From the NCBI GenBank assembly GCA_017882375.1, contig JADGPP010000016.1:1-48489 (forward strand): 48,489 nt of DNA, given 5' to 3'. Below the pieces are notes generated by a model. It was not told the DNA's origin. It was given only the letters and a program-made list of their open reading frames with translations, and searched no databases. This DNA is from Solirubrobacteraceae bacterium (GTDB lineage Bacteria; Actinomycetota; Thermoleophilia; Solirubrobacterales; Solirubrobacteraceae). The position numbers were made by a program, and so were the translations under genes. Below are positions 15,036 through 45,623 of this stretch, piece after piece (position 1 is the stretch's first letter; the number at the start of each line of letters is the position of its first letter).

Positions 15036-15806
15036 TCAGGCTCTCGACACCTGCGGCGTTCGCTGCATCTGCGCCCTCGCGATCAGCTCGCGCACGGCGC
15101 CTTCGCCCTGGCCGCTGGCGGCGCCGTCGCCGCGCAGCAGCTCGATCGGGTCGGGGTCGCCGTTGACGATGCCCTCGAAGAACTCCTTGCGGTCTCTATA
15201 TGTAGGCAGCGTGCCCTTGGCCCAGCCGCGCACCTCGTTGAGCAGCACGGCCAGGCGCGCGTAGGGCTCGCCGAACTGCCCCTCGATCTCCCTCTTCATC
15301 CGCTTTGCCAGCGCCGGCGAGGCGCCGGCGGTGGAGATCGCGATCGCCAGCGGTCCGCTGCGCACGATCGCCGGCAGGATGAAGTTGCACAACGGCGGCA
15401 CGTCGACGACGTTGGCCAGCATCGCGCGCCGCTCGGCGTCCTCGAACACGGCGATGTTCACGTCGGTGTCGTCGGTCGCGGCGATCACGATGAAGGCGCC
15501 CTGCAGGTCGGCCGGACCGGCGTACCGGCGGCGCTGCCACTCGATCGAGCCCTCGTCGGCGTACTCGCGCAGCGCCGGCTCGGCGTCAGGCGCGATCAGC
15601 GTGACCTGGCCATCGCAGGCGAGCAGGCCCTCGACCTTCTCCAGGCCGATCGACCCGCCGCCAACGACCACGCAGCGCCGGCCGGTGAGCTTCAGGCAGG
15701 CGATGTAGAAGGGCGTGTCGAGCATCCCCTGCACGCAGCTCTGATCGCAGATCCCCTTGCGCAGCTGGCACACGCACTCCTTTCCTGCATAAGCCTGGGC
15801 GGGCAT
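15036..15806 (-). CDS. Precorrin-2 dehydrogenase / sirohydrochlorin ferrochelatase-type protein
   Basis: Protein of 256 aa if started at 15806. From residue 28 it matches the CysG N-domain/Met8p/SirC family: [19 protein letters not shown] (NAD-binding Rossmann strand), [26 protein letters not shown] and [13 protein letters not shown]. It oxidises precorrin-2, made by CobA, to sirohydrochlorin and may insert iron. The first 27 residues hold four cysteines (C11, C13, C20, C24) and are not part of the usual fold. An alternative ATG at 15725 would remove them, but the GGGG next to it is too close to serve as a ribosome site. It is the first gene of the hem/ccm run. Confidence 0.85.
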
Positions 15807-15865: not shown

Positions 15866-15959
15866 CTCTTCGCACGTGCTGCGATAGCCATGGTATATGC
15901 AGGCAGCAGGCGGAAACACCGCTTGTATATACCTTTGCTACCGCTGCACGCGCGAGCAG
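15866..15959. repeat. Long imperfect inverted repeat upstream of the hem/ccm run
   Basis: Arm 15866-15898 and arm 15927-15959 (33 nt each) are complementary at 26 of 33 positions by eye. They include a perfect inner 7 bp (GGTATAT/ATATACC) and a nearly perfect GC-rich outer part around a 28-nt loop. A competing pairing exists: AGCGGTGT (15858-15865) with ACACCGCT (15916-15923), the latter lying in the loop. The repeat sits in the leader of the minus-strand run that starts at 15806. It could be an attenuator or a protein-binding site; no known riboswitch class is recognised. Confidence 0.7.
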
Positions 15960-15983: not shown

Positions 15984-16081
15984 GGCAAGGTCGCATGCGA
16001 CCTTGCCCGAGGCCGCACACGTGCGGCCTCGCACGCAAGCGCACATGTGCGCTTGCGCCAGGTGGCACATGTGCCACCTGG
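15984..16081. repeat. Array of four consecutive 24-bp palindromes
   Basis: Units: 15984-16007, 16008-16031, 16034-16057 and 16058-16081. Units 1, 3 and 4 are perfect palindromes and unit 2 is perfect except for its central AC. As RNA each makes a 10-bp stem closed by the tetraloop CATG (units 1, 3, 4) or CACG (unit 2). The stems differ in sequence: they start GGCAAGGTCG, CGAGGCCGCA, CGCAAGCGCA and CCAGGTGGCA. The array lies between the end of the aldehyde dehydrogenase-like gene and the leader of the hem/ccm run. It can act as a strong terminator, an operator array or a cruciform-forming element. Confidence 0.9.
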
Positions 16082-16104
16082 AACAGCTGTCACCTGGAAC
16101 AGCT
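16073..16104. repeat. Two tandem 16-bp repeats
   Basis: GCCACCTGGAACAGCT (16073-16088) and GTCACCTGGAACAGCT (16089-16104) differ at one base. They abut the stop codon of the gene at 16105 and the first copy overlaps the right arm of the last palindrome, so the array probably grew from this duplication. Confidence 0.8.
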
Positions 16105-17739
16105 CTAACGCGGCAGTCCCCGCCCGAGCGCCCGCGCACCGATGCGCGCGAGTGCCAGCGCGCCGTTGCGCCAGGCGTGCTCGCGGTCGGGCTCGCGACT
16201 GGAGCGCATCTTGGCGACCGAGCGCGCAGCGCGCGTGGTCAGCTCGTCGTAGGGGCCCCACCACAGCCCGCGGGCGGCGGCGGGATCCCAGGTGATCAGC
16301 TTCTCCTGCGCGCATGCACGCAGCCCGGCCGCGCCGAGCGTGCGCCCGAGCCCGCCGCCCGCGGCCGCGCCCCACGGGCCGCGCGAGACCGTCGGGCACG
16401 GCAGGTGGTCGTTGCACCAGACCATCCCGGCGTGCAGCTCGCGCGCGATGCGCAGGGCCTGGTAGCGGTCGGCCGTCCACACCGACGCGCCGAGCGCGTA
16501 GTCTGAGTCGTTGGCCAGTTCGATCGCCTCGCCGATGGAGTCGACGGCCATCACCGCGAGCACCGGTCCCTCCAGCGGCTCGCGCATCAGGCGCATCTCG
16601 TGCGTGACGCCGGTGATCACCGCGGGCGCGTAGAAGGAGCCCGCCTCACAGCCCGCCGGGCTGACCGGTCCGCCGCAGTGCAGCGTCGCGCCGTGGGAGA
16701 TCGCGTCGGCCACGAGCACGCTGACGTGCTCCAGCCGGCGCGGCGAGGCCAGCGGCCCGACGTCGGTGCGCGGATCGGCCGGGTCGCCGACGCGCAGCGC
16801 GGAGGCGGCCGCGACGAGCCCGTCGACGAACCGCTGGTGGATCTCCCGCGAAACGTACACGCGCTCAACCGAGCCGCGCGCCTGGCCGGCGCCCGCGCAG
16901 CCGGCCCACAGCGCGCCGTCGACCGCGCGCGCCAAGCGCGCGTCGGTGAGCACGAGCATTGCGTCCTTGCCGCCCAGCTCGACCGTCACCTCCTTCTCGC
17001 GCGAGACGCCCTCGCCGGCGACCACGCGCCCGACGGCCGGCGAGCCGGTGAAGAGGATCTTGTCGACCGGCGATTTGGCCAGCGCTATCCCCACGTCGGC
17101 TCCGCCGTGGGCGATCCGCACGAGCCCCTCGGGCAGGCCGGCACGGGCGAGCACGCGCGCGATCCGCTCGCCGGCGAGCGCCGCGCGCGCGGCCGGCTTG
17201 AAGGCGACGCCGTTGCCCGCGAGCAGCGCGCCGGCGATCTGCCCGAGCGGCTGCGCAAACGGCGCGCTGCCGGCGCCGATCACGCCGACGACGCCGTAGG
17301 GCTCGAAGGCGACGCGCGCGCGCTTGGCCAGCGACATGCCGCGACTGATGCCGACGCGCCGGCCGCCGAGCAGGTCGGCGCCGTCGTCGGCGATCCAGAT
17401 CAGCGCGTCGATCGCCGGCAGCAGCTCCAGCGCGGCGATCTCCGCGGCCGGGCGACCCTGCTCGCGCGCCAGCGCGGTCGCGAGCTCGTCGAAGTCGTCG
17501 ATCACCGCTTGGGCCATGCGGCGCATGTAGCGGGCGCGGTCTTGCACGCGCAGCAGCGCCCACAGCGGCTGCACCTTGGCGACCTCCGCGACGACCTCCG
17601 GGATTCGTCGCGGCGCGGTCGCCTGCACGCTGCCCAGCGGCTCGCCGGTGGCCGGGTCGCGCGCCTGCAGCGTGTTTGCCGCGGCGGCCTCGCCGACGGT
17701 CGCGCTCAGGCCACGGGGCTCGCTGGGAATAGCGCTCAT
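16105..17739 (-). CDS. Aldehyde dehydrogenase homologue lacking catalytic residues
   Basis: Protein of 544 aa with the full ALDH-superfamily fold: FKPA near 180, FTGSPAVGR near 230-238, VELGGKDAM at 253-261 (general-base Glu254), VERVYVS at 291-297. The residue that should be the nucleophilic Cys, in the AGQ-x-C position, is Arg288 (AGQARGSVER). The oxyanion Asn of the usual W-N-Y-P is Ser158 (GAGSAPF). The later E-E-I-F-G-P motif reads EPLEGP, and the C-terminal P-W-G-G-x-K-x-S-G is PWGAAAGGG. It may be inactive as a dehydrogenase and serve a binding or structural role. Compare the intact enzyme at 33461. It has a roughly 50-residue C-terminal extension. Confidence 0.85.
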   Translation of the reverse strand: MSAIPSEPRGLSATVGEAAAANTLQARDPATGEPLGSVQATAPRRIPEVVAEVAKVQPLWALLRVQDRARYMRRMAQAVIDDFDELATALAREQGRPAAEIAALELLPAIDALIWIADDGADLLGGRRVGISRGMSLAKRARVAFEPYGVVGVIGAGSAPFAQPLGQIAGALLAGNGVAFKPAARAALAGERIARVLARAGLPEGLVRIAHGGADVGIALAKSPVDKILFTGSPAVGRVVAGEGVSREKEVTVELGGKDAMLVLTDARLARAVDGALWAGCAGAGQARGSVERVYVSREIHQRFVDGLVAAASALRVGDPADPRTDVGPLASPRRLEHVSVLVADAISHGATLHCGGPVSPAGCEAGSFYAPAVITGVTHEMRLMREPLEGPVLAVMAVDSIGEAIELANDSDYALGASVWTADRYQALRIARELHAGMVWCNDHLPCPTVSRGPWGAAAGGGLGRTLGAAGLRACAQEKLITWDPAAARGLWWGPYDELTTRAARSVAKMRSSREPDREHAWRNGALALARIGARALGRGLPR

Positions 17740-17778: not shown

Positions 17779-19152
17779 CTATCGCTGGTGGTGATCGCGT
17801 GCCTCGCGAATCTCGCGCAGGCGCCGCTGCAGCTGGGCCTCGGCCTCGTCGGGCTCGTAGAAGCGCGCGCCGGCGACCTCGTCGGGCAGCAGCGGCTGCG
17901 GCGAGGCGTGGCCGGGGTGGCCATGCGGGTTGTCGTAGTCGGCCTGCTCCTGGCCCGGCCTGGGACCGGAGCGCAGCCACGGCGGCGCGGGCTGCGCTCC
18001 GTGCTCGCGCACGTGGCGCTGGGCGGCGCCGAGCGCCCGCCCGGCGGCGTTTGACTTGGGCGCGAGCGCCAGGTAGATCGCGGCCTGCGCGAGCGCGTAG
18101 CGCGCCTCGGGCAGGCCGACGTGCTCGACGGCGGCCGCGGCCGCCGTCGCGACAGACAGAGCCGCCGGATCGGCGTTGCCGATGTCCTCGGAGGCGAGGA
18201 TCACCATCCGCCGCACGATGAAGCGGGGATCCTCGCCGCCCTCGAGCATCACCGCCAGGTAGTACAGCGACGCATCGGGATCGGAGCCGCGCGTGGCCTT
18301 GATCCACGCCGAGGCGTAGTCGTAGTGGCGATCGCCCTTTTTGTCGTACAGGACCGCGCGCCGCTGCAGCGCATCCTCGACACCGGCGAGCGTGACGCTC
18401 CCGCCGGCATCGCCGGCCTCGCCGGCCGTCGCCACGGCGAGCTCGAGCGCGTTGAGCGCGGTGCGCGCGTCGCCTTCGCTGCGCGCGGCGAGGAAATCGA
18501 TCGCCTCGTCGTCGACCTCGGCCTCGGACGCGCGCCGCAGCAGCTCGCCGACCTCCTCGGCGGTGAGCGCCTGCAGTGCATACACGCGCATGCGCGAGAG
18601 CAGCGCGCCGTTGACCTCGAACGCGGGGTTCTCGGTGGTCGCGCCGATCAGCGTGAGCACGCCCTCCTCTACGGCCGGCAGCAGCGCGTCCTGCTGGGCC
18701 TTGTTGAAGCGATGGATCTCGTCGAGGAAGAGGATCGTCTGCGCCTCCGGCGCGCCGCGCTCGGCCAGCGAGCGCCGGTGCGTCGCCCGCTCGATCACCG
18801 CGCGCACCTCCGCGCGTCCCGCCTGCACGGCGCTGAGCTCCTCAAAGGCCGCCCGCGAGTGCTCGGCGATCAGCCGCGCGAGCGTCGTCTTGCCCGACCC
18901 GGGCGGGCCGTACAGCACCATCGAGTGCGGACGGCCGTGCTCGATCGCGCTGCGCAGCGCCGAGCCGTCGCCGAGCAGATGCGACTGCCCGACAAAGTCA
19001 TCCAGGGTGCGCGGGCGCATGCGCACGGCCAGCGGGCGCGCGTCGCGCGTGTCGCTGTCGTCGGCGGCCGCTCGCCGACCCGTGCCGCCGTCTGACTCGG
19101 CCCCCGCGCCAGGCTGGCGAGAATCCGGATCGTCATCGAACAGTGTCTCCAC
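17779..19152 (-). CDS. rarA: Replication-associated recombination protein A (AAA+ ATPase)
   Basis: Protein of 457 aa with a GTG start at 19152 (METLFDDD); a longer frame exists but adds non-conserved sequence. It is the MgsA/WRNIP1 family, related to clamp loaders, acting at stalled replication forks. Visible features: MRPRTLDDFVGQSHLL (45-60), Walker A GPPGSGKT (82-89), Walker B LFLDEIHRFNKAQQDALLP, sensor GATTENPAFEVNGALLSR, then the RarA-specific C-terminal part WIKATRGSDPDASLYYLAVM and ASEDIGNADP. No SD sequence is clear before the GTG, so the exact start is uncertain. The gene stands alone, 39 bp before the ALDH-like gene. Confidence 0.93.
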   Translation of the reverse strand: METLFDDDPDSRQPGAGAESDGGTGRRAAADDSDTRDARPLAVRMRPRTLDDFVGQSHLLGDGSALRSAIEHGRPHSMVLYGPPGSGKTTLARLIAEHSRAAFEELSAVQAGRAEVRAVIERATHRRSLAERGAPEAQTILFLDEIHRFNKAQQDALLPAVEEGVLTLIGATTENPAFEVNGALLSRMRVYALQALTAEEVGELLRRASEAEVDDEAIDFLAARSEGDARTALNALELAVATAGEAGDAGGSVTLAGVEDALQRRAVLYDKKGDRHYDYASAWIKATRGSDPDASLYYLAVMLEGGEDPRFIVRRMVILASEDIGNADPAALSVATAAAAAVEHVGLPEARYALAQAAIYLALAPKSNAAGRALGAAQRHVREHGAQPAPPWLRSGPRPGQEQADYDNPHGHPGHASPQPLLPDEVAGARFYEPDEAEAQLQRRLREIREARDHHQR

Positions 19153-45550: not shown

Positions 45551-45623
45551 GGCGAGATAGCTCAGTTGGTAGAGCACACGACTGAAAATCGTGGTGTCCC
45601 GGGTTCGAGTCCCGGTCTCGCCA
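45551..45623 (+). tRNA. tRNA-Phe (GAA)
   Basis: A 73-nt cloverleaf. Acceptor stem GGCGAGA (45551-45557) pairs with TCTCGCC (45616-45622), discriminator A45623. Anticodon stem CACGA/TCGTG encloses loop CTGAAAA, giving anticodon GAA. The T arm is CCGGG-TTCGAGT-CCCGG. CCA is not encoded beyond the terminal CCA overlap. Antisense open frames over it are artefacts. Confidence 0.97.

Follow-up and report, generated by a model that had tools for sequence, protein, structure and literature searches.

The array of four consecutive 24 bp palindromes at positions 15984-16081 of a 48,489-nucleotide contig from a Solirubrobacteraceae bacterium (JADGPP010000016.1, contig C94 of a 3.57-Mb draft genome; the whole contig is referred to here as the window) belongs to a family of palindromic elements dispersed among Solirubrobacteraceae genomes. 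Across this family the two arms of each unit remain complementary while their sequence turns over, both arms changing together; the central CATG is fixed, and many of the sites are inherited across species. We lean towards an explanation in which the arms of dispersed palindromic elements would be kept identical by hairpin-templated copying, with the CATG apex and the unit length held by a putative recogniser. Dispersed palindromic elements, some of them in-frame in genes, are a kind already known from repetitive extragenic palindromes (REPs) and from Rickettsia. As far as could be checked, however, arrays of perfect 24 bp palindromes with a fixed CATG apex and free arms that change in concert, both in and between genes, are new, and we found no description of them in the open literature, the subscription literature lying outside the search.

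Three of the four units in the window are perfect palindromes and one is unpaired only at its central dinucleotide, as the original prediction had described. This unit (unit 3) has the centre CACG on the plus strand, a one-sided change of CATG, and its orthologue in the congener G002 has CATG. At the window GC content of 0.704, simple arithmetic gives a chance expectation of about 0.02 perfect 24 bp palindromes per 48.5 kb; three lie side by side in the array and one is found elsewhere (18126-18149, CGACGGCGGCCGCGGCCGCCGTCG), which is without CATG, lies within a coding region, and is probably a chance product of GC-rich sequence. As DNA and as RNA the array folds into exactly four hairpins with 4 nt loops and 10 bp stems with GC-rich feet (z = -10.0 and -9.2 respectively). 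An Rfam search of the window returned only a tRNA (45551-45623), with no curated structured-RNA family at the array. Avoidance of CATG through restriction was rejected as the origin of the fixed centre, as CATG and GCATGC occur in this genome at the expected frequencies (observed/expected 1.03 and 1.02).

Runs of such palindromes also occur in related genomes. BLAST of the array against its own genome returns only the array itself because the arms vary, and a short core search finds two further arrays (C4:7504-7623 and C45:163-232) with different arms and the same centre. A one-unit covariance model yields just these three arrays at good E-values in this genome and dozens of units in congeners, and a three-unit model has matches in 19 of 24 congeners with E-values down to 1e-16. 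Species rich in arrays include G002, G005, G014, G022, and those of g42, and G016 and G018 are array-free. Across the order the three-unit model matches 33 of 232 genomes, all within four genera of the one family, and in a sample of the phylum it matches one of 396, the query genome itself, although both of these large searches were strictly filtered and could have passed over weak copies in other genomes. The order of unit types within arrays is conserved as A-B-C(-D), with GTT at the A end and a pyrimidine-rich edge at the other. The original prediction was thus right both in its constant loop with barcode-like stems and in holding that the structure is selected or actively generated, and these hold across 33 genomes; its claim that the outer arms are unrelated between units needs correction, as the units share a positional consensus and the A-B-C order across arrays. 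Viral contigs contain no exact copy of two unit consensus patterns. Recent transposition within a genome was considered, but the signal is weak, identical left arms being only slightly commoner within one genome (2.6%) than between genomes at different sites (1.1%).

The form of the element was assessed in 109 distinct arrays containing 396 units. Arrays have between two and seven units, with three in 55 arrays and four in 31. The perfect arm length is exactly 12 in 274 of the 396 units, and the centre-to-centre spacing is 24 bp in 196 of 287 cases, with nearly all of the remainder at 23-26 bp, a range that is common outside coding sequence. When the array spans were scanned for palindromes with any centre, 375 of 389 had CATG and 371 had RCATGY. 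At L232 and L285, in or beside otherwise normal arrays, two units have a TATA centre (GTATAC), the central C-G having changed on both sides. Because the array-finding model rewards pairing, every CATG in 400 kb of G002 was scanned independently of it, and the outcome is bimodal, with 19 sites having 9-10 of 10 pairs, three having eight, and the remainder being chance-like; 17 of the 19 are accounted for by five arrays, each with three or four units, and no array in the 400 kb is half-decayed. Partly degenerate units are present elsewhere (e.g. L257 and L317), and in a rare case of decay the first unit of the L300 array (CCTCGTCTCTCATATGAGAGGGAG) is badly degenerate while its neighbours are perfect. 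Ahead of the intact C45 array in the source genome, a half-deleted older unit (GTTCCACCCGGCGCATGCGC; L073:112-165) is followed by unrelated DNA; the unit is complete at the orthologous site in G022 (L227), and arrays can therefore be truncated and rebuilt.

In 25 aligned arrays, 99.2% of cells are paired and double-sided changes occupy 164 cells, whereas shuffling gives 37 and the slid controls never exceed 21, and the arm positions at which all four pair types occur (columns 8/23) are complementary in every unit. Judged by homologous DNA on both flanks, 22 sites are common to two or more species, with up to seven species per site, and the orthologous units at these sites, paired by best match, differ by 585 double changes, 88 one-sided changes, and 35 that are unpaired. 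Individual arm positions have changed in 13-47% of unit comparisons at these sites, nearly always on both sides together; the C-G pair of CATG changed in none of 290 comparisons, and the A-T dyad in six of 290, each time on one side. Transversions, for which no wobble intermediate exists, account for about half of the double changes, and 149 of the 585 are changes from C-G to G-C. Of 3519 inner array pairs, 12 (0.3%) are GT or AC mismatches, whereas among 466 pairs in tRNA stems parsed at these loci, 28 (6%) are G-U (Fisher p 7e-18). The mean best left-arm difference (of 12 positions) is 2.8 for orthologous arrays and 3.2-3.3 for arrays elsewhere, and since orthologous arrays are only a little more alike than others, arm turnover is close to saturation even though the sites themselves are retained.

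The orthologous site of the window array illustrates this behavior. Arrays are present there in the source genome (G000), in G002 (three units), and in G005 (six units). Three units correspond between G000 and G002, with six double changes and no single-arm changes, and the sole one-sided difference is the central dinucleotide of unit 3; unit 2 is without counterpart in the G002 array. Seven congeners (G003, G011, G012, G013, G017, G020, and G022) have a short spacer free of arrays, and G009 has a longer spacer, also with no array. The absence of palindromes from relatives, which had been raised as a concern, is thus true of several congeners but not of G002 and G005, and it reflects patchy presence. 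A small two-protein tree groups G000 with G009 (0.999) and joins these with G002 (0.895), such that inheritance with loss is the simplest reading of the site. All three arrays of the source genome are at sites common to other species.

Eleven of the 109 arrays are situated within open reading frames, those of leucyl-tRNA synthetase (LeuS) in four species, a ribosomal-protection-like ABC-F ATPase in six, and diaminopimelate decarboxylase (LysA) in one. In all 36 in-gene units the reading frame takes CAT as a codon, giving x-AHA-x peptides, and all 25 in-gene spacings are exactly 24 bp, compared with 173 of 262 spacings outside genes that are multiples of three (p = 7e-5). The LeuS array is located in a variable linker. 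In LysA the matched segment is 67 residues long in G007 and 33-39 in most of the other congeners compared, with the exception of G021 (58 residues, no array motif), and the array is a clean insertion. Because the frames are open and the spacing is frame-preserving, the in-gene element is most likely translated and tolerated.

Between genes (as modeled with a simple codon-usage predictor), 64 arrays lie between tandem, 22 between convergent, and seven between divergent genes, whereas background gene pairs at the same loci number 316, 63, and 88 respectively. Arrays lie at a median of 19 bp from the closest stop codon. This placement at gene 3' ends is usual for tolerated extragenic repeats, and a regulatory role is unneeded to account for it.

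These properties can be brought together in the following model. Each unit, when present as single-stranded DNA, forms a 10 bp hairpin with CATG at the apex, and hairpin-templated synthesis, through template switching or quasi-palindrome correction in replication, would keep the arms identical, so that a mutation in one arm would be either copied to the other or erased. Template switching is able to make and keep perfect stems (PMC8794818; PMC6649704), and it predicts simultaneous matching changes on both arms and the creation of perfect stems (PMC8794818, PMC8604942). The 585 double and 88 single changes observed here fit the predicted paired change, and of the three explanations offered in the original prediction, template switching on quasi-palindromes fits best. 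It is, however, a mutational process and not an element, and it predicts neither a fixed CATG nor a 24 bp unit. These would be held by a putative sequence- or structure-specific recogniser, an enzyme or other factor that we propose because CATG is conserved, and that is probably tied to dispersal of the element. Whole A-B-C elements are likely to have been dispersed in the past, given that their order and boundary are common across sites. Genes accommodate the element chiefly at their 3' ends and within protein linkers, and most likely it is selfish or neutral and does not regulate its neighbours.

Several considerations weigh against hairpin-templated copying. No enzyme was found, and template switching is read from divergence, with one genome per species. 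Template switching alone leaves the fixed CATG, the 24 bp length, and the grouping into arrays unexplained, and a very similar pattern could arise if perfect DNA hairpins were strongly selected for. Some of the pairs matched as orthologous units may not be true orthologues. The transition share is 50% in double changes and 30% in flank mismatches, so a minor stepwise route through G-T intermediates is possible, and the placement at gene 3' ends would also suit an RNA function there.

Plain selection for a perfect DNA hairpin is the main rival, and we regard it as possible but rather unlikely. A putative protein recognising DNA hairpins or cruciforms (for example a mobilising recombinase or a nucleoid protein) would require CATG at the apex of a perfect 10 bp stem, with imperfect copies being lost. 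The fixation of both apex and unit length points to recognition, the combination of stems constrained in structure only with a sequence-specific apex is typical of hairpin recognition, and the DNA folding score (z = -10) is in keeping with it. The changes from C-G to G-C, however, must pass through a mismatch that such selection would remove, and there are almost no intermediates, even at the outer positions; moreover, copies occur in essential genes of several species without an obvious common cellular role.

RNA hairpin strings at gene 3' ends, acting as terminators, operon insulators, or mRNA stabilisers without a U tract, are an improbable explanation, in spite of the proximity to stop codons, the enrichment in convergent and depletion in divergent positions, and the very stable RNA fold. 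Arrays inside open reading frames preserve the frame of essential genes including leuS and lysA, where a chain of strong terminators is implausible, and wobble-type pairs are nearly absent. The array edges have no U tract and no preferred orientation, and the source genome, with just three arrays, has too few for a general terminator. An intrinsic terminator was accordingly rejected, and the essential-gene copies and the lack of G-U contradict operon insulation by an RNA hairpin string as the element's general function; insulation of the hem/ccm run specifically fails because the element adjoins and occupies unrelated genes elsewhere.

Tandem operators for a dimeric DNA-binding protein, also proposed originally, are very improbable. 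The units do share the palindromic core RCATGY and a tandem spacing of about two helical turns, but fully variable arm positions stay complementary, which excludes an ordinary protein-binding array, and copies occur within coding genes as well as next to unrelated ones. The same genus also has a stand-alone CATG-centred palindrome (GTATNNCCATGGNNATAC), present at 12 of the fetched loci, some of which overlap. It shows the opposite pattern, with conserved arms, and resembles a typical operator site for a dimeric regulator; allowing two mismatches, the window has no match to it. An assembly artefact or chance can be practically dismissed, for although the array-bearing genomes examined are all draft assemblies, mostly metagenome-assembled genomes, only about 0.02 such palindromes are expected in the window and the family is present in 33 assemblies, at 22 shared sites, and in-frame in genes. 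A CRISPR array was rejected because the units are contiguous, the stems variable, spacers absent, and the neighbours metabolic genes.

The closest bacterial counterparts are the REP, REPIN, and BIME elements, 20-40 bp palindromes in many copies that are often grouped and mostly extragenic at gene 3' ends, with stems that vary while pairing is kept and with some REPs within genes (PMC3733652, PMC3116915). The elements here are similarly numerous, dispersed, and mainly extragenic (109 arrays with 11 in genes, and five arrays per 400 kb in G002), but they differ in having a fixed CATG apex, variable stems with perfect pairing free of GT, and head-to-tail arrays of three or more different units. 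GTAG REPs, which are mobilised by RAYT, have a conserved GTAG (or variant) at the stem foot, which is lacking here, the edges being GTT and pyrimidine-rich. CGTC REPs, for which no transposase is known, carry a CGTC/TGTC tag on stems of 8-9 bp that begin with A-T pairs; the units here have no such tag, and their 10 bp stems have GC-rich feet. A RAYT/Y1 transposase was rejected as the driver, as Y1_Tnp (PF01797, IS200/IS605-like tyrosine transposase) is absent from 23 of 24 congeners, including the array-rich G002, G005, G014, and G022.

According to PMC6649704 (which cites Ogata 2000 and Claverie 2003), Rickettsia palindromic elements are inserted in-frame in unrelated protein genes and between genes, much as the present element is found in LeuS, the ABC-F ATPase, and LysA, and between genes. 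They are described there as losing repeat identity over time, whereas perfection is kept across species here, a distinction drawn from published description. Coding inverted repeats of nematomorph mitochondria have perfect arms, positions shared between species with changed sequence, and no excess of imperfect repeats, and the authors favor repeat conversion or template switching (PMC6649704); they differ in being mitochondrial, with up to 142 bp per arm and without a fixed apex, arrays, or a dispersed family consensus. Mitochondrial hairpin elements (sponge repetitive hairpin-forming and fungal double-hairpin) are dispersed and short with divergent sequences and a patchy distribution (PMC2800124), but are organellar and intergenic, and are likened to the present elements by description.

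Perfect palindromes with sequence turnover bear on the long-standing question of whether a stem changes in two separate steps or through a single act of copying. Within one bacterial family the elements supply short hairpins replicated in their hundreds, a natural data set in which orthologous sites and in-gene copies serve as controls, and they add a bacterial case of palindromic elements in-frame within essential enzymes. The fixed CATG apex points to an enzyme still to be found. A bolder form of the copying model, which we advance tentatively and with some doubt, is that a dedicated enzyme system recognises the CATG apex of the 10 bp hairpin and rewrites one arm from the other, so dispersing or extending arrays. 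If so, each unit would be a self-repairing mobile hairpin able to live in essential genes, through a mobile-element mechanism unlike that of RAYT/REP.

Table 1. Coordinates of the array, its parts, and related features (window positions unless a locus is named).
Feature	Position	Strand	Description
Unit 4, type C, gene-distal	15984-16007		GGCAAGGTCGCATGCGACCTTGCC; perfect 24 bp palindrome, centre GCATGC; orthologous unit in G002 is GTCAGGGTCGCATGCGACCCTGAC
Unit 3, type B	16008-16031		CGAGGCCGCACACGTGCGGCCTCG; 22/24 paired, 10 bp arms perfect, central AC unpaired
Spacer CA, 2 bp, between units 2 and 3	16032-16033		Sole break in the array
Unit 2	16034-16057		CGCAAGCGCACATGTGCGCTTGCG; perfect 24 bp palindrome, centre ACATGT
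Unit 1, type A, nearest stop of upstream gene	16058-16081		CCAGGTGGCACATGTGCCACCTGG; perfect 24 bp palindrome, centre ACATGT
Boundary trinucleotide GTT	16082-16084	-	Abuts the type A unit; recurs at one end of many arrays
Two copies of boundary plus half unit, period 16	16067-16098		ACATGTGCCACCTGGA / ACAGCTGTCACCTGGA; local duplication of the array end
Aldehyde dehydrogenase family gene	16105-17739	-	Stop codon 23 bp from the array
Precorrin-2 dehydrogenase / siroheme synthase N-terminal domain gene	15036-15806	-	Downstream; first in the hem/ccm run
Stand-alone palindrome with conserved arms (GTATNNCCATGGNNATAC)	L082:4905-4922, L419:2136-2153, L423:12559-12576, L435:767-784, L435:11269-11286, L059:14984-15001		Sites of the palindrome

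The aldehyde dehydrogenase and precorrin-2 dehydrogenase genes, both on the minus strand, flank the window array. Between the array and the start of the precorrin-2 dehydrogenase gene there is an imperfect inverted repeat (15870-15955; 35 nt, 80% complementary, 16 nt loop), and the spacer that holds it is far longer than in several of the array-free congeners.
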